From Saccharicrinis carchari (lineage in GTDB: Bacteria > Bacteroidota > Bacteroidia > Bacteroidales > Marinilabiliaceae): a stretch of 64,000 nucleotides of DNA. Shown one piece after another: positions 16,068-28,095 of the stretch. Position 1 is the stretch's first letter. The number at the start of each line of letters is the position of its first letter. The notes below the pieces were generated by a model. The model had not been told where the DNA came from. It worked only from the letters and a program-made list of their open reading frames with translations, and did no database searches. The position numbers were made by a program, and so were the translations under genes. The stretch is taken from assembly GCF_900182605.1 (NCBI RefSeq), contig NZ_FXTB01000009.1, forward strand, positions 1 through 64,000, written 5' to 3'.

Positions 16068-16637
16068 CTATTTTTTTACACGTTCTACATAACTGCGGTC
16101 GCGTGTATCCACTTTTATCCAATCGCCCGTATTAACAAACAGGGGCACCATTATTTGCGAACCGGTATCAATGGTAGCGGCTTTCAACGAGTTGGTAGAA
16201 GATGTGTCGCCCCTCACGCCTGGCTCGGTGTAGGTAACTTCAAATTCAATGTTTATGGGCAGGTCAACTAAAAGAGGTGTTTCGGTATCGGCATGATACA
16301 CTACTTCGCAGTTTAAGCCATCTTTTAAAAAATCGTGATTATCTATCAGTTTTTCCTCAATAATTACTTGTTCATAGGTTTCATTGTTCATAAAAACATA
16401 TCCCAAATCCTCCTTGTATAAAAACTGGTAGCTACGACGCTCTACGCGTTGCTCATTCAATTTTACCCCTACCGAAAAGGTGTTTTCGAGTACCTTACCG
16501 GTTGAAACATTCTTTAGTTTGGTACGCACAAAGGCCGGGCCTTTACCCGGTTTAACATGTTGAAACTGCACTACAGAATACAAGTCGTTCTTGAATTCAA
16601 TACACATCCCATTTCTAATATCAGCAGTAGTTGCCAT
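16068..16637 (-). CDS. efp: Translation elongation factor P
   Basis: EF-P, 189 residues, rescues ribosomes stalled on polyproline by binding between the P and E sites. Three beta-barrel domains are expected. The domain I loop reads VKPGKGPAFVR with the modifiable residue at the Lys of PGKG, and the C-terminal signature is INIEFEVTYTEPGVRGDTS followed by TIDTGSQIMVPLFVN and DTRDRSYVERVKK. Length matches the family. The modification gene (epmA/B or other) is not in this window. It has its own -7 box (16676-16683, minus) and terminator, so it is monocistronic. Confidence 0.97.
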   Translation of the reverse strand: MATTADIRNGMCIEFKNDLYSVVQFQHVKPGKGPAFVRTKLKNVSTGKVLENTFSVGVKLNEQRVERRSYQFLYKEDLGYVFMNNETYEQVIIEEKLIDNHDFLKDGLNCEVVYHADTETPLLVDLPINIEFEVTYTEPGVRGDTSSTNSLKAATIDTGSQIMVPLFVNTGDWIKVDTRDRSYVERVKK

Positions 16638-16830: not shown

Positions 16831-16838
16831 TATATTTG
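16831..16838 (+). promoter_or_regulatory. -7 promoter box for the XRE-cupin regulator
   Basis: TATATTTG matches TAnnTTTG exactly, 30 bases before ATG 16869. Together with the absence of an upstream ATG in frame this supports that start over the TTG at 16854. No good -33 box is seen. Confidence 0.5.
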
Positions 16839-16868
16839 CGCCATGAATAATTATTGATTTTTGGGATT

Positions 16869-17420
16869 ATGAAACTCTTAGGAGAACGAATAAGGAGGAG
16901 AAGAGAAAGTTTGCACATGCAACTAAATGAGCTTGCTAAAAAAGTGGGTGTTAGTTCCAGTGCTTTGTCGCAAATAGAGAAGGCGAAGGCATCGCCCTCA
17001 ATTGTAACACTTAAGGCTATTGCAGATAGCCTCCGTACTACGGTTGGTGCATTAATAGGCGAAAATGAAGTTTTAACGAAAAACCCATTGGTACGATTTG
17101 AGGAGAAGAGTTTTGTTGAAAAGAATGCATCGGGAACCTCATTATACCTGTTATCGAACCATGGTAATAATAAAGAAATGGAAACATTTCTTGTTCATTT
17201 TGAGGAGAATTCTGATGCGGATACACTAATGAAGGTGCATCCGGGACAGGAGTTCTGTTTTGTTTTAAAAGGTGAAATTGAGATACAATTAGAAGATAGA
17301 ATTTTTATTCTGCAAGAAAAAGATAGTTTTTATTTCAACTCGAACAGGATGCATTCGGCGCGAAACAGAGCAAAAGGTATCTCACAAGTATTATGGGTGG
17401 TAACACCTCCCGAAGAATAA
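16869..17420 (+). CDS. XRE-family transcriptional regulator with C-terminal cupin
   Basis: A 183-residue cytoplasmic regulator. Residues 5-60 form an HTH_3 domain (LGERIRRRRESLHMQLNELA, then VSSSALSQIEKAKASPS as recognition helix region). Residues about 105-180 form a small cupin with HPGQEFCFVLKGEIEIQLE and SFYFNSNRMHSARN. This architecture belongs to regulators such as PuuR/SutR relatives, where the cupin senses a small metabolite. It lies 128 bases upstream of the DUF4914 gene in the same direction and is the likely local regulator of that cluster; the ligand is unknown. An upstream TTG start at 16854 is possible but less likely. Confidence 0.88.
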   Translation: MKLLGERIRRRRESLHMQLNELAKKVGVSSSALSQIEKAKASPSIVTLKAIADSLRTTVGALIGENEVLTKNPLVRFEEKSFVEKNASGTSLYLLSNHGNNKEMETFLVHFEENSDADTLMKVHPGQEFCFVLKGEIEIQLEDRIFILQEKDSFYFNSNRMHSARNRAKGISQVLWVVTPPEE

Positions 17421-17548
17421 AAAAATTTTAAAACAGAGGTTAAGCTCTGCTTAAATATATAACCACATCTTAATTTGAGCTGTAATTGAAAATAATGCAT
17501 TAAGTAAGCAAAACGCAAACATTAATATAGTAGAATAATAAATTACCT

Positions 17549-19510
17549 ATGAAAGATTTATTTAAGGTTGTTAAAGAAAAAAACATAAGCTTGCCCGAAA
17601 ATATTGCAAGTTTATTAAAGGAATGCAAAAGCTTAACGGTATTTAATACCACGGATGAACTGGCAACGGCAGCTACAAATGGGAAAGAAAATGTTGAATA
17701 TGAGGTAAAGTATGATGTGCCCGGCAAAGGTGAATATGTAGAGGCCACTGTGCAACAGGTAAAGAATGGGATATCGGCTAATTATACAGAGGCTTATATG
17801 CGCAGACGCGACCCTGCCACCATGGTAATAGCTGACGACAAGCCAACCGATAAAAAAACATTTAAAGAGAAGTATGGCTATGATTTCCCTAAGTTACAAG
17901 AGGAAACTTTTGCTTGGATGAAGGAACAGGACTTAGCCTTATTTTTTTATTTTGCCGGAAGAGTAAACATTGGTTCGCTTGGCATAGCTATTGCTCCCGC
18001 CAATGCGGCCTTTTTTGCTATGGGTTTATCTATGTTGCAGGAAATGGTTTCTCTGGAAGAATTAAAGGAAGATGCAGAAATTAAATCGGTAATTTTTGTT
18101 GCGCCTGTATTTCGCCATACACATTTCGATGGTAAGCAGGTAGTGGTGCATAATCGTACCGAAAAAATACATGAGTTATATTCATATAATTTATATCCGG
18201 GACCGAGCGCAAAAAAAGGACTATATGGGGTGTTACTAACACAAGGAGAAGAAGAAAACTGGGTAACGGCGCATTGTTCAGCAGTGCAGTCAATAAGCCC
18301 TTACGACAACATCACCACCTTTATGCACGAGGGCGCCAGTGGAGGAGGCAAGAGCGAATTGCACCAGCATATTGTGCGCGAGCCCGGAGGCAGAGTACTG
18401 ATAGGACAAAATTCTATAACAGGGGAAGAAAGATTTATTACTATTCCCCGATTTTGCTCTTTCAACCCGGTGGCGGATGATATGGCCTTCTGTCATCCTT
18501 CGTTACAGAGGCAAAACGGAAAGCTACGAATCATTGATGCTGAAAACGCCTGGTTTGTGCGGGTAGATAGCGTTAATCAGTATGGTGACGATCCAACCTT
18601 AGAAAAAACGACCATCGCACCTGCCGAACCTTTACTGTTTCTTAATATCGACACGCAACCCCGATCTACCGCCTTAATTTGGGATCACATTGAGGATGAG
18701 CCGGGCAAACCCTGTCCGAATCCCCGAGTTATAATCCCACGTAAAATTGTCCCCAATGTGGTAGATAAGCCGGTTTCTGTTGATATCCGTAGCTTTGGCT
18801 TAAGGGCACCTCAATGTACCAAAGAAGCTCCTTCGTATGGTATTGCCGGCATGTTTCATGTTTTACCACCTGCTTTAGCTTGGTTGTGGCGTTTGGTTGC
18901 CCCACGTGGCCATAACAACCCGAGCATTGTTAGTTCGGGAGGCATGGAGAGCGAAGGCGTTGGCTCCTACTGGCCATTTGCCACCGGAAAACGCATCCCC
19001 CATGCCAATATGCTGCTCAAACAAATTATCAATACCCCGCGAACTACATTTACGTTGGTACCTAACCAAAATATTGGCGCCTGGAAGGTGGGTTTTAAAC
19101 CTCAACTGTTAATGCGCGAATACCTAACCCGCAGGGGGGCAGCCAAGTTGAGAACAGACCAGTACCAAGCTTCGCGATGCCCACTTTTAGGCTACGAATT
19201 AAACTATCTAACCCTGGAAGGCTCTAAAATACCTTCGCGTTTTCTGAAAGTATACAACCAACCCGAAGTTGGCCTGGAGGGTTACGATGCCGGTGCCGAA
19301 ATGTTACAAAAGTTCTTTAAAACAGAATTACAGAAATACCTGCAAAGCGATTTGCTTCAAACGGGTAAACGAATTATTGATGCTTGTTTATCTAATGCAA
19401 GTATTGAGGAATATAATGAAATAGTTCCAATGAGTTTCCAATATGATTATTCATTTAACAATATAGAAGACTATGAGCAAAGTAGTGATTTTAATGGGGT
19501 CAAAGGCTGA
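17549..19510 (+). CDS. DUF4914-type protein with HprK/PEPCK-like P-loop
   Basis: A 653-residue soluble protein that I place in the DUF4914 family from overall appearance. The notable feature is GASGGGKSE at residues 262-270, a Walker A loop closer to the HPr kinase (GxSGxGKSE) and PEP carboxykinase type than to ordinary ATPases. It is followed by HQHIVREPGG, a conserved-looking DDMAFCHPS and many Pro/Arg motifs (RSTALIWDH, SVDIRSFGLRAPQC, SVGSYWPFATGKR-like). This suggests an ATP- or GTP-binding kinase or carboxykinase of unknown substrate; function is inferred. It is the first structural gene after the XRE-cupin regulator and overlaps the PurE-like gene by 38 bases, implying coupled translation. 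Confidence 0.75.
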   Translation: MKDLFKVVKEKNISLPENIASLLKECKSLTVFNTTDELATAATNGKENVEYEVKYDVPGKGEYVEATVQQVKNGISANYTEAYMRRRDPATMVIADDKPTDKKTFKEKYGYDFPKLQEETFAWMKEQDLALFFYFAGRVNIGSLGIAIAPANAAFFAMGLSMLQEMVSLEELKEDAEIKSVIFVAPVFRHTHFDGKQVVVHNRTEKIHELYSYNLYPGPSAKKGLYGVLLTQGEEENWVTAHCSAVQSISPYDNITTFMHEGASGGGKSELHQHIVREPGGRVLIGQNSITGEERFITIPRFCSFNPVADDMAFCHPSLQRQNGKLRIIDAENAWFVRVDSVNQYGDDPTLEKTTIAPAEPLLFLNIDTQPRSTALIWDHIEDEPGKPCPNPRVIIPRKIVPNVVDKPVSVDIRSFGLRAPQCTKEAPSYGIAGMFHVLPPALAWLWRLVAPRGHNNPSIVSSGGMESEGVGSYWPFATGKRIPHANMLLKQIINTPRTTFTLVPNQNIGAWKVGFKPQLLMREYLTRRGAAKLRTDQYQASRCPLLGYELNYLTLEGSKIPSRFLKVYNQPEVGLEGYDAGAEMLQKFFKTELQKYLQSDLLQTGKRIIDACLSNASIEEYNEIVPMSFQYDYSFNNIEDYEQSSDFNGVKG

Positions 19511-19939
19511 TCTTGCATGGGCTACAAGGGTTGTAGATAGTTTGCAGCTATTTAGTATTAGTGCTGAATGCCATATAGCATCTGCCCATAAGGTGCCTTT
19601 ATTTTGTTATGACATCATTAAAGAAAAAGAAAAAATAACATCGTATTTATAACAATTGCAGGAATGAGCAACGCCTTAAGCGGTTTTAGCGATGCGCAAA
19701 CACATTGTCCGGTTATTGCATGTCCTCCTGTAGGTGATTCTTACGGTGGTAATGATGTATTCTCAAGCCTTAGAATGCCTTCCGGAGTTGCTCCAATGGT
19801 GATTTTAAATCCCGAAAATGCAGCCCTTGCAGCAGCCAAAATACTAGGGCTTTCCGATTCAGGTATCCAAGTAAAGGTAAAGGAATTTCAGGAAGCACAA
19901 AGACAAAAACTTATTGACGACGATAAAAGTATAAAGTAA
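19473..19939 (+). pseudogene. PurE-like (AIR carboxylase family) gene with a frameshift
   Basis: From ATG 19473 the frame encodes VVILMGSKADLAWA (the PurE nucleotide-binding start) and CHIASAHKVP, then reaches a stop at 19650-19652 after 59 residues. The -1 frame, open from 19622, continues the same family with NNIVFITIAGMSNALSG, CPPVGDSYGG, SSLRMPSGVAP and NPENAALAAAKILGL up to 19939. One extra A in the run of six at 19630-19635 would join them into about 155 residues. Classical PurE converts N5-CAIR to CAIR, but the GSKSD-to-GSKAD change, the AHKVP in place of AHRTP and the context argue for a paralogue. Explanations are a pseudogene, transcriptional slippage on the A run, or a base-calling error. 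Confidence 0.7.
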
Positions 19940-19946
19940 TTAATGC

Positions 19947-20246
19947 ATGGAGAAGAGATATAATATTATCGCGGCCTTTTTTATTATGCTCTGTTTAGGC
20001 AGCATATATGCATGGAGCATATTTGTACCTGAACTGATAGACACTTATGGTCTAACAACAGCACAAACGCAATTGATATTCGGAACGGTTATTAGTGTTT
20101 TTACCCTAACAATGATAGGGGCAACCGCACTAATGCAGAAATTGGGCCCTCGTATTTTGGCCACCATTTCCGGACTTCTCTATTTTATCGGATATTTTAT
20201 TGCCTTCCTTTCGGAAGGCAATTTTTTGTATGACGGGCATGGTAAC
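19947..20246 (+). CDS. OFA-type MFS transporter, 5' exon
   Basis: The first 100 codons of a major facilitator of the oxalate/formate antiporter (OFA) type. It begins MEKRYNIIAAFFIMLCLGSIYAWSIF, the family's typical first helix with GSIYAWS, followed by two more helices up to GYFIAFLSEGN. Without splicing the frame runs into the group II intron and stops at 20261. The continuation (WMGIGLLGGIGTGMGYL) begins at 22145, which is exactly where this family continues. The gene starts 7 bases after the PurE-like gene, as the last member of the cluster. Exported substrate unknown; an organic acid is plausible from the family. Confidence 0.8.
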
Positions 20247-22143
20247 GTGCTATCAAGATGAAAGTTCTTGAGTTCGCCTAGTTGACAGGAAGGACTAGCA
20301 ATTGGCAAGGGTGTTGGGGGTGACCCCAAATCTGAAGGAAGCCATCAGCAAAGTCATAGTTCTAACGTACAGAAATTTGATATAAGGCTCAATAGTGTTG
20401 GGCAACCGAGCAATGGATTGGGAAAGCCCCAAAGTCAACCGTAAACACTTAGGGTAAATCAAGTAGGACGTGATGAAAGTATGTTACCTTATCCCGTGAG
20501 ATCTCAAAACTTGTTGTGGCAAACAACAAACTGAACGGCGACAATCAGCGAAAAGTTTTGAGAAGTCAGCAGAAGACATAGTATCTCTGGTTTTTTTTTT
20601 CAGAGAGAAGGTCTGAATCAGTTAATTAAAGAAGCAGTCGGACAAGACTTTTATCTATGGAGCACCAGCAACAAATAGCTTACCAGCGTGATATGTTCAT
20701 AGAACATACACAGGAGGCTATTGGTCAATCTGGAAATCGTAAAGACGTAAACGGCGCGAAAACACGATTGACGGAGCAATTAGATAAAGAGACGAGTCAA
20801 GGACGAGTCTTTGCAGAAGGATTAATCGGCATTGTATGCTCATCAGAAAATATCAACCGAGCATACAAACAAGTGAAAAAGAACAAGGGCGTAGCGGGAG
20901 TAGACAATGTTCCCGTAGGAAATTTCGCTGAATGGTTTGCAAAAGAAGGAGATGAGTTAGTCAACCAAATACTTCGGGGCGAATACCTTCCCTCGGTAGT
21001 GAAATTAGTAGAAATACCCAAGCCCAATGGCGGTGTACGTCAGTTAGGGATTCCAACCGTACAGGACCGGATTCTCCAACAGGCAATTTCACAGGTGTTA
21101 ACCCCCATTTACGAGCAAGTATTTTCAGATCACAGTTACGGTTTTCGTCCAAAACGCAGCGCAAAGCACGCCATAGAGCGAGCAAGCAGCTATGTTAAGG
21201 ACGGCAGAAATATAGTTGTTGATATGGATATGAAGAGTTTCTTTGATGAAGTTAACCATGATAGACTGATGTATCGTCTATCACAGCTTATTCAAGACAA
21301 ACCTCTTCTAAAGCTTATACGCAAATACTTACAAAGTGGAGTTATGACAGGTGGACTAGTCCATCAACGTTTGAAAGGCACCCCCCAAGGAAGCCCACTT
21401 TCCCCACTCTTATCTAATATTGTTTTAGACGAACTAGATAAGGAACTCGAAAAGCGAGGGCATTACTTTGTTCGGTATGCAGACGATTTCAGCATATTTG
21501 TTCGCAGCCAAAGAGCAGGCGAGAGGGTGAAGGAATCAGTCTGTTCATACCTCACAGGCAAACTTAAATTGAAAGTTAATGAACAGAAAAGTCAGGTTTG
21601 TAAAAGTAGCGAGACAAAATTCTTAGGGTTTACCATACTTGATCCGGGTATTATTACAATATCCGTCCAAAGTGTAAGCCGCTTTAAGAAGAAGGTACGA
21701 GAACTAACGAAGAGAAATCGGGGTATTGCTTTGGAGCAAGTAGTATCAGAACTCGAACCGATACTCCGAGGATGGTTAAATTACTTTAGAGTTGCGAAAT
21801 GCAAAAGACTTTTACGGAATCTTGATGCTTGGATTAGGCGTAAACTCAGATGTTATCGCCTGAAACAATGCAAACGAACCATAACACTTAAACGCTTTCT
21901 TAAAAGTTTGGGCGTTCCTAACTGGCAAAGTTGGATTTTAGCCCTTTCAGGTAGAGGGTGGTGGCGTAAATCGGGATGTCCACAAGTTCATCAAGCCATG
22001 AACCTTAAATGGTTCAATGATTTAGGATTGTTTAATTTGTCGATTAAATACAGTTTGTTATAAAATTAACTTGAAACCGCCGTATACGAGAGTACGTACG
22101 GTGGTGTGAGAGGGCGAGGGAGTAATCCCTCTACCTACTCGAT
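20247..22143 (+). mobile_element. Group II intron with reverse transcriptase
   Basis: The 5' end is GTGCT at 20247, close to the GTGYG consensus. About 410 bases of structured non-coding RNA (domains I-III) precede the RT gene. Domain V is recognisable at about 22076-22110 (ACCGCCGTATACGAGAGTACG then TACGGTGGT), and domain VI as GAGGGA/TCCCTC with a bulged A seven bases from the end CTACTCGAT at 22143. The intron sits inside an MFS transporter gene in the sense direction. Boundaries are certain to within one or two bases only; see the finding on reading frame. Confidence 0.88.
20657..22063 (+). CDS. ltrA: Group II intron reverse transcriptase/maturase
   Basis: A 468-residue intron-encoded protein that helps splicing and retrohoming. 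RT blocks are intact: IPKPNGGVRQLGIPTVQDR, VVDMDMKSFFDEVNHD, GTPQGSPLSPLLSNI and the catalytic FVRYADDF. A maturase domain X follows (LEPILRGWLNYFRV, then LDAWIRRKLR). No HNH endonuclease domain is visible, and the protein ends shortly after domain X with GRGWWRKSG. This fits classes that lack an endonuclease and often prime from the replication fork. The frame is complete, so the intron may be active. Confidence 0.95.
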   Translation: MEHQQQIAYQRDMFIEHTQEAIGQSGNRKDVNGAKTRLTEQLDKETSQGRVFAEGLIGIVCSSENINRAYKQVKKNKGVAGVDNVPVGNFAEWFAKEGDELVNQILRGEYLPSVVKLVEIPKPNGGVRQLGIPTVQDRILQQAISQVLTPIYEQVFSDHSYGFRPKRSAKHAIERASSYVKDGRNIVVDMDMKSFFDEVNHDRLMYRLSQLIQDKPLLKLIRKYLQSGVMTGGLVHQRLKGTPQGSPLSPLLSNIVLDELDKELEKRGHYFVRYADDFSIFVRSQRAGERVKESVCSYLTGKLKLKVNEQKSQVCKSSETKFLGFTILDPGIITISVQSVSRFKKKVRELTKRNRGIALEQVVSELEPILRGWLNYFRVAKCKRLLRNLDAWIRRKLRCYRLKQCKRTITLKRFLKSLGVPNWQSWILALSGRGWWRKSGCPQVHQAMNLKWFNDLGLFNLSIKYSLL

Positions 22144-22144
22144 T

Positions 22145-23041
22145 ATCCTATGGATGGGTATAGGCTTATTAGGAGGCATAGGAACAGGAATGGGTTATCT
22201 GGTTTCGTTAACTGTACCGGTAAAATCGTTTCCACAAAAAAAAGGGCTTATAACAGGTGTTGTTGTCGCAGGTTTTGGGGCAGGAGCTATCTTATTAACC
22301 TACCTGGCCGATTTTCTTTTTAAAAATAGCGTAGGTGTATTACATGTTTTCCTGTATTGGGGCACCTTGTATGGTTTGATAATCATACTTGCTGCTCAAC
22401 AACTTAAAACATCCGGCTTAAAAGCCTCTCAAATTAGTTATTCGTCCGTAACCCCAATGAATGGCGTTGTTTTATTTAAACTGATCTTGGGTATTTTTGC
22501 GGGTACTTTTACCGGATTATTAATCATAGGGAATCTAAAGCCTATTGCTCAAATGCAAGAGGTATCAATGTATGCAATACCCCTGGCTATCTCGCTATTT
22601 GCTTTATCCAACTTCACCGGAAGAATAGTCTGGGGTTGGATGAGTGATCGTATCGGTAATACTCTTCTTATCCCTACTGCCTTACTTGTTCAAGGGGCTG
22701 TGTCGATGAGTCTATTTTCAGTGCCCGTTTCCGACATACAGTTTATTAGTCTCATTATTTTAATTGGCTTTTGTTTTGGGGCACATTTTGTGCTTTTTGC
22801 CAAAGATACCATCCAGATGTTCGGAATCGATAACTACGCAAAAATATATCCATTTATTTTTCTGGGATATGGGTTTGCCGGTATTGCAGGCCCCTTTATT
22901 GGGGGATGGGTAGTTGATCTAACCGGCGAATACATGTATGCAATACTTTTGGCATTTACTTTATCTATTGTTGCAACGTTTATATATGTTTTTATTGATA
23001 AAAAAGTACACGTTACAAACAGGGCTTTCCAAATAAGATAA
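22145..23041 (+). CDS. OFA-type MFS transporter, 3' exon
   Basis: About 298 codons encoding the remaining helices of the transporter, from ILWMGIGLLGGIGTGMGYLV through VPVKSFPQKKGLITGVVVAGFGAGAI (the conserved cytoplasmic loop of helices 4-5) to a last helix ending near FIYVFIDKKVH. Joined to the 5' exon it gives about 398 residues, the normal OFA length. The in-frame junction needs the exon to begin at 22145, one base after the canonical intron end. No independent start codon near the beginning would give a working transporter. Confidence 0.8.
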   Translation: MLWMGIGLLGGIGTGMGYLVSLTVPVKSFPQKKGLITGVVVAGFGAGAILLTYLADFLFKNSVGVLHVFLYWGTLYGLIIILAAQQLKTSGLKASQISYSSVTPMNGVVLFKLILGIFAGTFTGLLIIGNLKPIAQMQEVSMYAIPLAISLFALSNFTGRIVWGWMSDRIGNTLLIPTALLVQGAVSMSLFSVPVSDIQFISLIILIGFCFGAHFVLFAKDTIQMFGIDNYAKIYPFIFLGYGFAGIAGPFIGGWVVDLTGEYMYAILLAFTLSIVATFIYVFIDKKVHVTNRAFQIR

Positions 23042-23091: not shown

Positions 23092-23799
23092 TCAAAAGAT
23101 TTTATTTTTAGATACGGTAGCCACAAAGTTTTTTAAGTAAAAGGGTTCAAAGTAGGCCAAATCTTCAAACTGCTTGTTTTGGTATTTTTTATATGCCAAA
23201 CCCGCCATATTAGATGCCAGGGGTGCCAGGTCTTTAATAAAAACCGCATTACTGTGCTCAATAGTTCCCCGACATTTATCTGAACCATCTCCAAAAAATA
23301 CGATGGTATGTTTGTTCAGACGGTTCAAGTAACTGCTGCTGTCGATTATCCGGGCGCTAACTTTTTCTTTTAGATTCATAGCGCTATCAAAAAGAGCAGT
23401 ATATACTTCCATCCTGCGCGCATCTATCATGGGGCAATAAAGCATTTCCGTATCAACTATATTTTGTAAATCGGGATGTGCTATTGCTGCCTGTGCCAGA
23501 CATTCAAGCGAGGAAATAGCAATAAGTGGTTTGGCTAAGGCATAGCATATCCCCTTAGCCACCGAAACACCTATACGCAGCCCGGTATAGGAACCAGGCC
23601 CGCTGCTCACCGCTACTGCATCTATATCTTTCATGGATAAATCGGGTAGCTCATTAAACAAATTCTGAATAAACAGCGTAAGGTGGGTAGCATGCGAATT
23701 GGCCTCAAACAATTGCTTTTTGGCCACAATAGTTTGCTTATCTGATAAACAAACGGAACATACCTTGGTGGAGGTCTCCAACGAAAGAATCAATGCCAT
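23092..23799 (-). CDS. tsaB: tRNA threonylcarbamoyladenosine synthesis protein TsaB
   Basis: TsaB, 235 residues, a catalytically inactive ASKHA-fold partner of TsaD in forming t6A37 on tRNAs that read ANN codons. It shows the N-terminal ILSLETSTKVCSVCL, AVSSGPGSYTGLRIGVSVAKG and a C-terminal AYFEPFYLK. Length and motif order match the family. It is alone on the minus strand with a -7 box about 20 bases upstream of the start codon; tsaD and tsaE are not nearby. Its 3' end is convergent with the MFS transporter gene, 50 bases away. Confidence 0.94.
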   Translation of the reverse strand: MALILSLETSTKVCSVCLSDKQTIVAKKQLFEANSHATHLTLFIQNLFNELPDLSMKDIDAVAVSSGPGSYTGLRIGVSVAKGICYALAKPLIAISSLECLAQAAIAHPDLQNIVDTEMLYCPMIDARRMEVYTALFDSAMNLKEKVSARIIDSSSYLNRLNKHTIVFFGDGSDKCRGTIEHSNAVFIKDLAPLASNMAGLAYKKYQNKQFEDLAYFEPFYLKNFVATVSKNKIF

Positions 23800-23992: not shown

Positions 23993-25195
23993 TTAATTTT
24001 TTTTAGCATTCTCATCTGCCACCTTTTGCTTAAGTGTTTCAATGCGTTCCTTCTCCGAATCAAGGATACTTTGATCTGCTTTTGCCAGTTCAAGTAACTT
24101 TACTTTTTCGTTGAGATAAACAATGTTATTCTTTAGCGGCCACTGGCTGGCGGTAAAAGCATCTTCCATCCACTGAACCGCTTGCTGGTAATGCCGTATT
24201 TTGGCATCTGTGCCCTTTTCAATGGCTTTGGCCCAATTGTAATATAAAAATGCATTGGGCTGGCCATGATACCCTGCTTCGATGTTGGACTTTACTTTGG
24301 CTATATAAGCATCCCAATTATTATTTGCCCGGCAAATACTCTCCTCCACAAAAGCCACTATTTTTTCGCGTCCTTCCACTCTGCGCTCGTTCAACAGGAG
24401 TTTATATTTTCTAAATCCTGCAGAATCAACCATCGTTTGCCCATCTTTTTTAGATACAAAGGAGTGTCCATAGCCCAGGTAAGATTGATAAAGCTTACGT
24501 TCGACTTTTTCCTTGCCATACCGGTTGGCAAACTCTTCCTTGTGTTCATCAAACCATAAAAATGCGGGCAGCGCTACATCGCTCAGGTAGTTATGTATTA
24601 AATTATAATTGTACTCATCGAGTAATTCAGTACCCTTAACCTTTTTAAAATATTCCGCCAATACCCCTTGAATCTTATCTTTTTCGTAGGCATTGGCCAA
24701 TGCTTTTAAGTAGGTATTCATGGTGGTCGTATCCTCTTTGTTGAGGAGATACTTGCGTTCCAGATCTGCCAAGCCTTTACCATCCACAACCAGCTGGGCA
24801 ATATCAATTAAGGCTTGAGCTTTGGGCGCCCCTACCGATTTATGCAACTCATTGCCATCGGCATCCACCCAAACCAAGGTAGGAAAGGCCCTTACATTAA
24901 ACTTCTCTTTTAACATAATGCCCTCGCCTTTTTCCATATCTACCTTATAGTTGATAAAGTGGGCATTGAACAGGTCGCCTACTTCTTTTTGGGGAAAAAC
25001 TTTTTTAGATAGCATTTTGCAGGGACCGCACCACTCCGTATAGCAGTCGATAAAAATACTTTTGTCCTCGGCCTTTGCCAATGCTTTTATTTGTTCCCAC
25101 GAACCATGGGCGAACACTATGCCAACGGTGTCGTTTTGCGCCTGCATATTAACAATAATAAGACAAGCGACGAGAAAGGAGATGAATTGTTTCAT
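23993..25195 (-). CDS. Exported thioredoxin-family protein
   Basis: A 400-residue periplasmic protein: signal peptide ending near MQAQN, then a thioredoxin domain (about 25-140) with the redox motif WCGPC in YTEWCGPCKMLSKKVFP and the cis-Pro in RAFPTLVW. A long alpha-helical C-terminal region follows (about 150-395), probably TPR-like, without named motifs. It is a close paralogue of the gene at 25430-26740, sharing the KMLSKKVFPQKEVGD stretch. It is the last gene of the sigma/FecR/SusCD cluster, 234 bases after its paralogue. Likely role: disulfide reduction or isomerisation of exported proteins. Confidence 0.88.
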   Translation of the reverse strand: MKQFISFLVACLIIVNMQAQNDTVGIVFAHGSWEQIKALAKAEDKSIFIDCYTEWCGPCKMLSKKVFPQKEVGDLFNAHFINYKVDMEKGEGIMLKEKFNVRAFPTLVWVDADGNELHKSVGAPKAQALIDIAQLVVDGKGLADLERKYLLNKEDTTTMNTYLKALANAYEKDKIQGVLAEYFKKVKGTELLDEYNYNLIHNYLSDVALPAFLWFDEHKEEFANRYGKEKVERKLYQSYLGYGHSFVSKKDGQTMVDSAGFRKYKLLLNERRVEGREKIVAFVEESICRANNNWDAYIAKVKSNIEAGYHGQPNAFLYYNWAKAIEKGTDAKIRHYQQAVQWMEDAFTASQWPLKNNIVYLNEKVKLLELAKADQSILDSEKERIETLKQKVADENAKKN

Positions 25196-25429
25196 GAATT
25201 TATAGTATGATCAAGGATTAAGTAATGGGCGATAGGGCTGATGTATTACTAAAGCACTATTACCCGACGCCTTAGTATGTAAATACGTTTGTTGTAAGCT
25301 AATCAAAGGCCGAAAGCCCGTTCTGTGCCATAAATTCACCTCAGAACCAATTCACAAATCGGATTTTCAGCCCTTATCCAGATGGATTTTATGTTCGCTC
25401 ACTCCTGCATTAGAATAGCGCTATTGCTA

Positions 25430-26740
25430 TTAAAAACCACCCATTTTCATGGCCGGTACAGAGCGACCACCTTTTTTGCCTTCTTCTTTATCTTTTTGTG
25501 CTTCTTTATGGGTTTTATCGAGCAGCGCATTGTGCTTGGGCACTATGTTAACAAATAAATCGTTCATAGCTTTTGCTACCGCCAAGCGCTCCCCTTCAAT
25601 ACCGGCCTTTTGCACAAAGTCATAAGCATCGCGATAGGCAATAGATAACCTAAACATATTCAGCTCCGGGTTGTCCAATTCTAATTGAATGGCATCGTCC
25701 ATTAGTTTAACTGCTCTTTTAAAAACTTCCTTATCCTCGCAGTCCTTTAATCTGTTTAAAAGGTTAAAGCCCGATTCGGAGTAATAGCGGGGATTTTTGC
25801 TTAGGCCTTCGGCAAACTTTTCCTCTACCACATCCATGTAACCGGCATAGTCGCCCACATTCACCAACAAGGCACGATTGGTATAATCTTTTATAAGCTC
25901 AATCCTGTCGAAACCATTGTTTTGCATCAACTGTATCAGCTCATCGAATTTGGACTGGTCAAAATCCTCTTTTTTACTTACATCGGCCAGCTTTCCGGCA
26001 TAGCTGTAGTACATCCCCGACTCAAGATACTGCCCTTTAAATCCATTTTCCTTTACAAAAACTTCTTTGTTTTTAAAGTAATAGGCGGCCTCGTCGCTAA
26101 AGGGATCTTTTACGTAGCGGCTCAGAATCCAAAAATAATCTTTTTTATGCCAATCCGACTGAGGCACCATGTTAAGATAATGGATGGCTACTTCCTGTGC
26201 CTTGGGATCGCTTATTTTAACCAGGTAGCTCAAATAATCTTCGGTGGTTTTAATATCCTTTTTATTTTTTTTAAATGCCTTAGCCAGCGCATTACCTTTT
26301 TCTGATTGTGCCGGCGCACTTTTGGCTTCTGCAATTAATTTTTCGGCGGGTACAAAACCTATCACGCGGTGCAGCACTTCCTCGTTTTTGGGGTCGATGA
26401 ACAACATGGTAGGGAATGCCGACACACCGAACTTGTCTTTTAAAGTGATGCCTTCACCCTTTTCGCAATCTATTTTAACGTTTACAAAATTGGCATTAAA
26501 GTAATCGCCAACTTCTTTTTGTGGAAAAACTTTTTTCGACAGCATCTTGCAAGGGCCACACCAGGTGGTGTAACAATCTACAAAAATCAGTTTTTTTTGT
26601 TTCTTGGCATGTTTCAGCGCATCGACCCACTTGCCTTGAAAAAACCGGATACCCTCGTTGTTTTCGTTACCGGCCTGTGCCGGGGCAAATACAAGCAGTG
26701 CCATGGCCAAAATAAGTACTGCGGATTTTAAATTCTTCAT
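25430..26740 (-). CDS. Exported thioredoxin-family protein, paralogue
   Basis: A 436-residue periplasmic protein with a signal peptide ending near PAQAG, a thioredoxin domain with YTTWCGPCKMLSKKVFP and cis-Pro in SAFPTMLF, and a helical C-terminal domain of about 280 residues ending in a Lys/Glu-rich tail. The N-terminal half aligns well with the downstream paralogue, and the C-terminal domains have drifted. A dispersed hairpin element separates it from the TlpA-like gene upstream. Both active-site Cys are present, so it should be redox-active. Partner proteins are not known. Confidence 0.88.
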   Translation of the reverse strand: MKNLKSAVLILAMALLVFAPAQAGNENNEGIRFFQGKWVDALKHAKKQKKLIFVDCYTTWCGPCKMLSKKVFPQKEVGDYFNANFVNVKIDCEKGEGITLKDKFGVSAFPTMLFIDPKNEEVLHRVIGFVPAEKLIAEAKSAPAQSEKGNALAKAFKKNKKDIKTTEDYLSYLVKISDPKAQEVAIHYLNMVPQSDWHKKDYFWILSRYVKDPFSDEAAYYFKNKEVFVKENGFKGQYLESGMYYSYAGKLADVSKKEDFDQSKFDELIQLMQNNGFDRIELIKDYTNRALLVNVGDYAGYMDVVEEKFAEGLSKNPRYYSESGFNLLNRLKDCEDKEVFKRAVKLMDDAIQLELDNPELNMFRLSIAYRDAYDFVQKAGIEGERLAVAKAMNDLFVNIVPKHNALLDKTHKEAQKDKEEGKKGGRSVPAMKMGGF

Positions 26741-26796
26741 TGTTCTTTTATTTTGTTTTATTAATGATTCATTTCTTACTATTGCTTTGGGTCAGC

Positions 26797-26854
26797 TGAA
26801 AAACTCCAGAGGACTTTGCAGTGCATAACCCCCAGATTTATCTGGGGGTTATGT
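26797..26854. repeat. Dispersed hairpin element, copy 2 of 2
   Basis: CATAACCCCCAGAT (26824-26837) and ATCTGGGGGTTATG (26840-26853) are perfect inverted repeats. The block aligns with 4421-4478, including sequence outside the stem. It lies between the TlpA-like and thioredoxin genes and may lower downstream transcription or stabilise mRNA ends. Confidence 0.6.
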
Positions 26855-26952
26855 TGCACTTTGGATTCATTTTAGATTAACAATCTACTTATTATCTAAT
26901 ATGTAGTTGTTTTTCAGCAAGTCCCACCTATACATCCCATTACCGAAATTTA

Positions 26953-28095
26953 TTATTCAGATAACAACTCGTCTAACTTTTCATCAATTTTTTCACCGCG
27001 CAGATTCTTTGCCACAATTTTGCCTTGTTTATCCAGTATGATGATGAAGGGGATACCGCTAAACTGATAGTCCTTCATGGTTTGTTTACCCGCATTAGGA
27101 GCCAATACCTGTGCCCACGCCATGTTTTCCTCACCCAAAGCCTTGCGCCAGTCCTTCTCTTTTTTATCTATAGAAACACTCAGCATTTCAACACCTTTGC
27201 TGCGATATTTTTCGTAAACCTCTTTCAGGTGCGGTATTTCGGTACGGCACGGGCCACACCACGATGCCCAGAAATCGATAATCAGAAGCTTCCCTTCAAA
27301 GTCCTTTGGCGATACCATATCTCCGTCGGGTGTAGGGTAGGCAAAATGGGGCGCTTTGCTTCCAAGGGCTACCTTTTGGGCTGCGGCGCGAGCCTCTTCC
27401 TTATCTTTGATGTACTTTACCAATGGAGGATATTCCGGGTTGGCTTTTTTTAGGGTGGCCAATGTATGGTCAATCAGCTCCTTGTCGGTTTTGTCGCGAA
27501 GGCGTTTAACAACGGCCAGCACACTGTTTTGATCTGCATAATGTTCGGCCAGATAACGATATCGGGCACGGTCGTCATCACTTAACACGCCATATAATTG
27601 GCCCGAAATATCACCATACTTTTCAGGGACATCCCTTGTAGCCTGATAAACCCCTTGCGAAAAGCCTATCATTAATTGGTACGAACGGTAATTAATGAAG
27701 TTAAGGTGATTAATCAGTTCGTTCTTGGGGCCACCGTTAATATACACATAAGGGGGGTTTTTAATTTTAATTTTGGCCGTGTCGCGTCCGCGGAAATCAA
27801 TTTCCAGATTCTCGTCCTCGGCCCAAAAACGGACCGACTGCCATTTTTGACAATCGAGGATGTATTCGCCGGGAAAATCCGTTTTCATGGTGTAGGCATA
27901 ACTGCCATCCTGATTAATATCGAAAGAATCGGTTACTACCTTTTCCCTGTCGCGGTATTGATATATGTACATCTTAGAACCTTCGGCCGGGAATTTTACT
28001 TTTCCACTAATATTGATGCTCGCATCCTTTGTAGGGGCGTTGCATGAGCCCAGAGCGATAATAAGGGCTAAGACAAATGTTAATTGTATTTTCAT
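26953..28095 (-). CDS. TlpA-like thiol-disulfide lipoprotein with N-terminal DUF4369-type domain
   Basis: A 380-residue lipoprotein with lipobox LGSC (Cys about residue 18). Residues about 25-130 form a beta-rich domain of the DUF4369 type (INISGKVKFPAEGSKMYIY), a helical linker follows, and residues about 240-380 are an AhpC/TlpA-type thioredoxin fold with FWASWCGPCRTEIPHLKEVY and cis-Pro in FSGIPFIIILD. The CxxC is intact, so it likely reduces exported substrates. It starts 36 bases after the SusD gene, which ties it to the SusCD unit and suggests that the imported material or its binding proteins need thiol chemistry. Confidence 0.9.
   Translation of the reverse strand: MKIQLTFVLALIIALGSCNAPTKDASINISGKVKFPAEGSKMYIYQYRDREKVVTDSFDINQDGSYAYTMKTDFPGEYILDCQKWQSVRFWAEDENLEIDFRGRDTAKIKIKNPPYVYINGGPKNELINHLNFINYRSYQLMIGFSQGVYQATRDVPEKYGDISGQLYGVLSDDDRARYRYLAEHYADQNSVLAVVKRLRDKTDKELIDHTLATLKKANPEYPPLVKYIKDKEEARAAAQKVALGSKAPHFAYPTPDGDMVSPKDFEGKLLIIDFWASWCGPCRTEIPHLKEVYEKYRSKGVEMLSVSIDKKEKDWRKALGEENMAWAQVLAPNAGKQTMKDYQFSGIPFIIILDKQGKIVAKNLRGEKIDEKLDELLSE

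Follow-up and report, generated by a model that had tools for sequence, protein, structure and literature searches.

The window analysed here is a stretch of 64,000 nucleotides from Saccharicrinis carchari (Bacteroidota, Marinilabiliaceae; positions 1 to 64,000 of contig NZ_FXTB01000009.1), and the locus in question is a plus-strand gene group that is built around a protein of the family DUF4914 (PF16260). The group opens with a 183-amino-acid XRE-family regulator with a C-terminal cupin domain (16869-17420; HTH_3 PF01381, E 2.3e-13; Cupin_2 PF07883, E 6e-13; 67.8 bits with the PuuR model, under its cut-off of 211), followed by the DUF4914 gene (17549-19510; 653 amino acids; PF16260, E 1.8e-290), whose product is predicted to be an enzyme with the fold of phosphoenolpyruvate (PEP) carboxykinase (PEPCK), by a purE gene for aminoimidazole ribonucleotide (AIR) carboxylase (19473-19939, with a feature span to 19942), and by a gene for an OFA/lactate-type transporter of the major facilitator superfamily, which ends at 23041. 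A preliminary description had read four plus-strand genes here, and their order stands, but two of them differ from that account: a frameshift divides the PurE-like gene, and a 1.9-kb group II intron, which had been missed, lies within the transporter gene. The 38-base overlap (19473-19510) and the 7-base gap (19940-19946) are likewise correct as coordinates, but the purE that they adjoin is not one frame. The locus holds, in damaged form, a recurrent set of genes centred on a PEPCK-fold family that had gone unrecognised.

The DUF4914 protein matches PF16260 with 964.8 bits (cut-off 25.7) over positions 1-611 of the 612 in the model, and this is its only match, neither PF01293 (ATP-dependent PEPCK, ATP-PEPCK) nor PF00821 (GTP-dependent PEPCK, GTP-PEPCK) recognising it. 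An AlphaFold2 prediction from 78 sequences, which were left of 137 near-full-length ones from several phyla after an 88% identity filter and share 51-87% pairwise identity, reached a predicted local distance difference test score (pLDDT) of 90.3 and a predicted template modelling score (pTM) of 0.89; an earlier model from 12 sequences (pLDDT 45) was set aside. Foldseek returned 117 matches to the predicted fold in the PDB at E≤0.001 (best E 3.6e-24), and the 50 listed among these are all PEPCKs, of both ATP and GTP types, with template modelling (TM) scores by target of 0.62-0.77; a P-loop kinase core is part of the prediction. Profile comparison by hhalign relates DUF4914 to ATP-PEPCK at E 1.7e-7 over 417 columns (seven sequences) and at E 8.4e-7 over 504 columns (18 sequences), while the match to 17 GTP-PEPCKs is weak (E 0.0026, probability only 12%). 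A canonical ATP-PEPCK in turn matches PF16260 at E 1.7e-5, under the model cut-off, and eight of ten weak PF16260 matches in other genomes of a phylum sample (395 genomes, of which 13 hold DUF4914 over cut-off) fall within ATP-PEPCK-type proteins, such as the PF01293 protein L018. A sequence-profile search of the PDB gave thymidylate synthase as its sole match (E 0.63, chance), and global-mode hhalign had no useful outcome. On the predicted fold and the profile matches, DUF4914 is almost certainly homologous to PEPCK and shares its fold.

A joint MAFFT alignment of 20 DUF4914 sequences drawn from the 78, 18 ATP-PEPCKs and 17 GTP-PEPCKs yielded a tree with three separate clades, in which the mean distances are 5.4 between DUF4914 and ATP-PEPCK, 6.0 between DUF4914 and GTP-PEPCK and 5.9 between the two PEPCKs. 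The distance of DUF4914 from either PEPCK is about that between the two, which makes it look like a third class of the superfamily, without a name as yet. Invariant columns are shared to the same number in each pair, namely 30 of 65 for DUF4914 and ATP-PEPCK, 30 of 94 for DUF4914 and GTP-PEPCK, and 30 of 73 for ATP- and GTP-PEPCK, against means of 4.3, 6.5 and 5.4, respectively, in column shuffles that hold the alignment fixed, which works in favour of the observed value. Purifying selection on DUF4914 is strong, with nonsynonymous differences (pN) of 0.11-0.15 and synonymous differences (pS) of 0.76-0.80 in four comparisons.

The residues on which PEPCK catalysis is expected to depend appear to have counterparts in DUF4914. 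At R87, Y216, K223, H242, K268, S269, D310, D311 and R393 the 78 DUF4914 rows show no variation, and H242, K268, D310, D311, N391 and R393 are among the 15 columns that are invariant across the three families in the joint alignment, so that the P-loop Lys/Ser, the metal Lys/His/Asp and the substrate Arg/Tyr/Arg of the PEPCK superfamily all seem to be represented. In our reading, the phosphates would be held by K268/S269 of the P-loop, the catalytic metal by K223, H242 and D310/D311, and the carboxylates by R87, Y216 and R393, the corresponding positions in E. coli PEPCK presumably being R65, Y207, K213, H232, K254, T255, D269 and R333. The equivalences of R87, K223, H242 and R393 come from MAFFT, where Y216 lies one column off, and hhalign against ATP-PEPCK backs R87 and K223/H242. 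In its motifs, DUF4914 resembles ATP-PEPCK (PF01293; E. coli 1os1) in the SGxGK P-loop and in KKG, HCSA, DD and N-x-R, in addition to the predicted whole-protein fold, but ATP-PEPCK is shorter (~535 amino acids), only 14% identical in the structural alignment, and carries the P-loop GLSGTGKTT in place of GASGGGKSE. GTP-PEPCK (PF00821) is of similar length and is alike in E-x-W...H, DD-(I/M)-A-(W/F) and PN-x-R, but its SACGKTN P-loop is not found in DUF4914.

The surroundings of DUF4914 were compared at 81 loci, which consist of the best 80 of 560 confirmed matches (from at least 592 pattern matches in a contig scan) and one viral contig, with partners identified by tblastn and representatives assigned to Pfam families; the set includes close relatives and contig ends, hence the counts are not independent, partners may be hidden, and the numbers are plain counts. 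The XRE-cupin regulator lies within 2.2 kb of DUF4914 at 33 loci (a 34th match, at L077, was dropped as it lies 5 kb off and has 26% identity), a two-domain Sua5 is found nearby at 26, class II PurE directly downstream at 17, a HAD phosphatase at six, carbonic anhydrase at five (four in or adjoining the gene group, one 4 kb off) and the transporter SbtA at three. The neighbourhood expected from the preliminary description was thereby recovered for regulator, DUF4914 and PurE, the last as the class II type, and was thin for OFA, which adjoins or lies inside the gene group at two loci and is found at 4.8 kb at a third; an OFA-centred organic-acid pathway was rejected on this count. For PurE, neither of the two results that were to refute that description was obtained. 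The class II PurE and Sua5 genes of the operon are all downstream of DUF4914 on the same strand. The regulator is downstream at L079, L093, L096, L097 and L114 and on the opposite strand at L066 and L067, and its link with DUF4914 survives rearrangement, as its position and strand vary. SbtA follows DUF4914 after 6 bases at L122, and at L123 and L134, in two metagenome-assembled genomes labelled Gammaproteobacteria and Propionivibrio, PurE, PurK and SbtA are encoded on the other strand and read away from DUF4914.

The gene group of the window lacks Sua5, carbonic anhydrase and HAD phosphatase, the recurrent partners elsewhere. The window's genome has two YrdC-type genes; three were present in eight of 12 genome rows checked, or in seven of 11 genomes, as G395 and G467 are the same by coordinates (one third copy, that of G443, is a 765-amino-acid frame and no Sua5 of this kind). 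G415 and G470 hold just one YrdC-type gene besides the operon Sua5, which is therefore not a surplus copy in every genome. Two Bacteroidota loci, L069 (5567-6880) and L075, show a second kind of partner set: a gene for a GntP-family permease comes after DUF4914, at L069 together with a YjgF-like gene. Ten genes that adjoin DUF4914 where its usual partners are missing had no common theme, three of them being without a Pfam match. No DUF4914 match was found in plasmids, and the viral contig, from IMG/VR, carries the gene (L168:13-1878; 53% identity) at its extreme end, where it is probably the host flank of a predicted provirus.

The purE gene of the window starts in one frame (from 19473) and ends in another (to 19939), each half matching PF00731, while purE is intact in relatives. 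When the intact relative L082 was compared with the PDB, the best match was 3rg8 (E 4.4e-38), which we take to be PurE of Treponema denticola, followed by 2h31 of the human-type ADE2/PAICS (E 1.1e-22), and most class I entries were weaker; by these nearest structures, the operon PurE is of class II, apart from the frameshift that sets the window copy off from 3rg8. The T. denticola enzyme is termed class II (PMC9376930), and class II PurE is described as taking CO2 directly without ATP (PMC3261824). Among the 71 genomes of a sample of the window's taxonomic family, class II PurE was present in 12 of the 26 with DUF4914 and in three of the 45 without it (Fisher p 0.00016), and in 12 of the 12 that have both, the two genes adjoin. 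It is the sole match to a PurE query (E≤0.001) in 11 of the 15 genomes that have it, seven of these 11 being at least 90% complete, and for this reason appears to perform ordinary purine synthesis there. The window's genome has a second, normal purE on contig C11, which would make loss of the operon copy tolerable; a third gene with an AIR carboxylase domain (L026, G000 C3:355289-355690), possibly LarB-like, has a TAA inside the matched stretch. Programmed frameshifting was rejected, as inspection of the sequence revealed no slippery pattern. That the frameshift is an assembly error in an intact gene is possible but doubtful: there is an A-rich stretch and both halves look conserved against L082 (pN 0.19 and 0.09 against pS 0.84 and 0.70), yet the normal second copy renders a loss tolerable and Sua5 is likewise missing from the gene group.

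Canonical PEPCK is often found alongside DUF4914. The family sample holds ATP-PEPCK in 50 genomes, GTP-PEPCK in one, PEP carboxylase in 34 and DUF4914 in 26, and ATP-PEPCK is absent from 13 of the 26 genomes with DUF4914 as opposed to eight of the 45 without (p 0.0066). With genomes at least 90% complete the figures are 13 of 23 and four of 32 (Fisher p 0.0009), and a within-genus permutation gave p 0.019. Across the phylum sample, the window's genome is alone among the 13 with DUF4914 in having neither ATP- nor GTP-PEPCK, a state shared by ten of the 382 genomes without DUF4914. DUF4914 can hence stand alone, yet usually coexists with canonical PEPCK beyond the window's family, and a role as strict replacement of PEPCK was ruled out by the 12 of 13 phylum-sample genomes that contain both. 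Thermotoga maritima, used as a control genome, has a DUF4914 match and no match to PF01293, PF00821 or PF00311 (PEP carboxylase). As a separate observation, G414 and G440, both rated 100% complete, have no DUF4914 and no ATP- or GTP-PEPCK, yet have PEP carboxylase.

The explanation that we favour is that DUF4914 constitutes the third class of the PEPCK superfamily and most likely catalyses the interconversion of oxaloacetate and a nucleotide triphosphate with PEP, CO2 and a nucleotide diphosphate. This chemistry would fit the proposal of the preliminary description, in which an organic acid is carboxylated or decarboxylated with phosphorylation, although OFA as a regular partner did not hold up. 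In Bacteroidota, the gene would often belong to an inorganic-carbon operon, in which class II PurE consumes CO2, Sua5 uses bicarbonate and carbonic anhydrase links the two pools; the operon, with its XRE-cupin regulator, plausibly balances CO2- and bicarbonate-dependent reactions. PEPCK itself uses CO2 and not bicarbonate, according to a review (PMC8100219). The operon in the window would then be a remnant, with regulator and DUF4914 intact, purE frameshifted, Sua5 lacking and the transporter gene bearing an intron. PEPCK activity of DUF4914, judged from the modelled fold and the conserved residues, is moderately probable, and the explanation as a whole, including the remnant in the window, is held with a confidence only just on the favourable side. 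The inorganic-carbon reading of the operon is tentative and leans slightly to the doubtful side, and the combined proposal of an unrecognised third nucleotide-dependent PEPCK class heading an undescribed inorganic-carbon operon under its own cupin sensor is a shade more tentative still.

Several observations weigh against this explanation. Canonical enzymes accompany DUF4914 in 13 of 26 family genomes (ATP-PEPCK) and in 12 of 13 phylum-sample genomes (ATP- or GTP-PEPCK), and the window's genome encodes PEP carboxylase, so that it need not rely on DUF4914 for oxaloacetate. Within the alignments, hhalign against ATP-PEPCK places R393 elsewhere and does not equate D310/D311 with the PEPCK DD, as MAFFT and the comparison with GTP-PEPCK do; conservation of the base-binding residues, judged by eye in the joint alignment, is not clear; and two of the ten weak PF16260 matches (L017 and L023, in genomes of the same class; E 1e-4 and 8e-4; positions 283-356) lie in proteins not recognisable as PEPCK. 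The full partner set is confined to a subset of Bacteroidota loci, SbtA is close by in only three of the 16 loci among L118-L134 that are not labelled Bacteroidota, and of four relatives of the same genus (L135-L138) three have regulator and DUF4914 alone and one has Sua5 as well, none with PurE or OFA beside DUF4914. Since canonical PEPCK is usually co-present, DUF4914 does not simply stand in for it, and its substrate may be a different one. This leads to the alternative of a PEPCK-fold enzyme for another keto acid or for a phosphorylated intermediate, active alongside canonical PEPCK in a pathway to which the neighbouring carboxylases also contribute. This would suit a family that is tight in itself (lowest identity 51% among the 78) yet distant from each PEPCK class, with a P-loop unlike either of theirs; it sits less well with the invariance of the counterparts of oxaloacetate- and PEP-binding residues and with the 13 of 26 family genomes that have no ATP- or GTP-PEPCK, and is considered unlikely. 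Coexistence also has a precedent, as organisms with pyrophosphate (PPi)-dependent PEPCK mostly carry ATP- or GTP-PEPCK too (PMC8100219).

The neighbourhood could also be a loose housekeeping cluster, in which PurE, Sua5 and carbonic anhydrase lie near a PEPCK-like DUF4914 through shared regulation of growth genes rather than any logic of inorganic carbon. Partner order and presence do vary among loci, and many DUF4914 genes are without the partners sought or stand beside unrelated genes (EPSP synthase, the GntP permease, glycosyltransferase), but the constant adjacency of class II PurE in family genomes that have both genes and the presence of SbtA next to DUF4914 in three loci from other phyla make a mere cluster improbable. 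Least credible is an HprK-type protein kinase/phosphorylase that regulates metabolism. The P-loop, whose GASGGGKSE Walker A motif at residues 262-270 was verified, ends in GKSE, as does that of HprK, and the XRE-cupin regulator adjoins DUF4914; however, the PEPCK fold is predicted over nearly all 653 amino acids and the PEPCK substrate residues are conserved. The Pfam search of the protein gave no HprK family match, and no HprK structure is among the 50 listed of the 117 Foldseek matches, a comparison of structures with no direct comparison to HprK sequences. Of the preliminary suggestion of an HprK/PEPCK-like P-loop, it is the PEPCK half that was borne out, by the fold predicted over the full protein, and an HprK function is very improbable.

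What interrupts the transporter gene is a group II intron, also on the plus strand, that is placed at 20247-22138 between the two parts of the gene, 19947 to ~20246 (NF049980, E 1.1e-17; TIGR00890, E 1.7e-12; both below cut-off) and ~22139 to 23041 (NF049980, E 6.1e-53, below cut-off). In no single frame is the TIGR00890 cut-off of 374.85 bits reached, the pieces scoring 47 and 136. Rfam models mark the catalytic RNA domains, D1-D4 by RF02001 (20314-20487, 119 bits) and RF01998 (20527-20613) and D5-D6 by RF00029 (22075-22143; fold z -4.37), and these flank, in the expected order, a reverse transcriptase/maturase of 468 amino acids (20657-22063; PF00078, E 1.1e-43; PF08388, E 9e-21; TIGR04416, 407 bits, cut-off 300). 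In these domains and in its maturase the element is alike to bacterial group II introns of the TIGR04416 type, while its own traits are the position inside an OFA gene, the strong hairpin upstream and the lack of any endonuclease domain among the Pfam matches of the maturase. The ends (20246/22139) are inferred from GTGCT...AC termini, in-frame exons and the pairing of exon-binding site 1 (EBS1, GTTACC, 20483-20488) with intron-binding site 1 (IBS1, GGTAAC, 20241-20246). Two of three homologues align with exon 1 up to 20228, and homologues align with exon 2 from 22142 or 22145, the predicted spliced frame having seven codons more than the homologues. Homologous transporters have nothing that corresponds to the last 18 bases before the insertion, in which a TATGAC resembling IBS2 is followed by a spacer and by IBS1, and a 10-bp hairpin (20199-20222; z -5.57 for 20197-20226, also found by a terminator scan) lies in the coding sequence 24 bases 5' of the insertion point. 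The intron may splice out of the OFA gene.

The genes next to the operon are identified by sequence. Divergent from the regulator lies what is probably an elongation factor P gene (16068-16637, minus strand), and convergent to the operon what we take to be a tsaB-like gene (23092-23799, minus strand) for N6-threonylcarbamoyladenosine (t6A) modification of tRNA. Sua5 makes the t6A precursor, and the vicinity of a tsaB-like gene to an operon that lacks Sua5 is probably a coincidence. Further downstream, 23993-28095 on the minus strand presumably encodes three successive secreted proteins of thioredoxin-like fold.

PEPCK, an enzyme of central metabolism, fixes or releases CO2 at the point where glycolysis meets the C4 acids. 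The review, in its available part, names ATP-, GTP- and unrelated PPi-dependent enzymes only (PMC8100219). Within the open-licence literature, subscription papers being outside this coverage, no paper naming DUF4914, PF16260 or IPR032583 was found, nor, among the entries listed, a report of a new PEPCK class or of a Thermotoga PEPCK. If the explanation is true, a third PEPCK class would close gaps in metabolic models such as that of T. maritima, and a regulated CO2/bicarbonate operon would suggest that some anaerobic Bacteroidota handle inorganic carbon as a unit.

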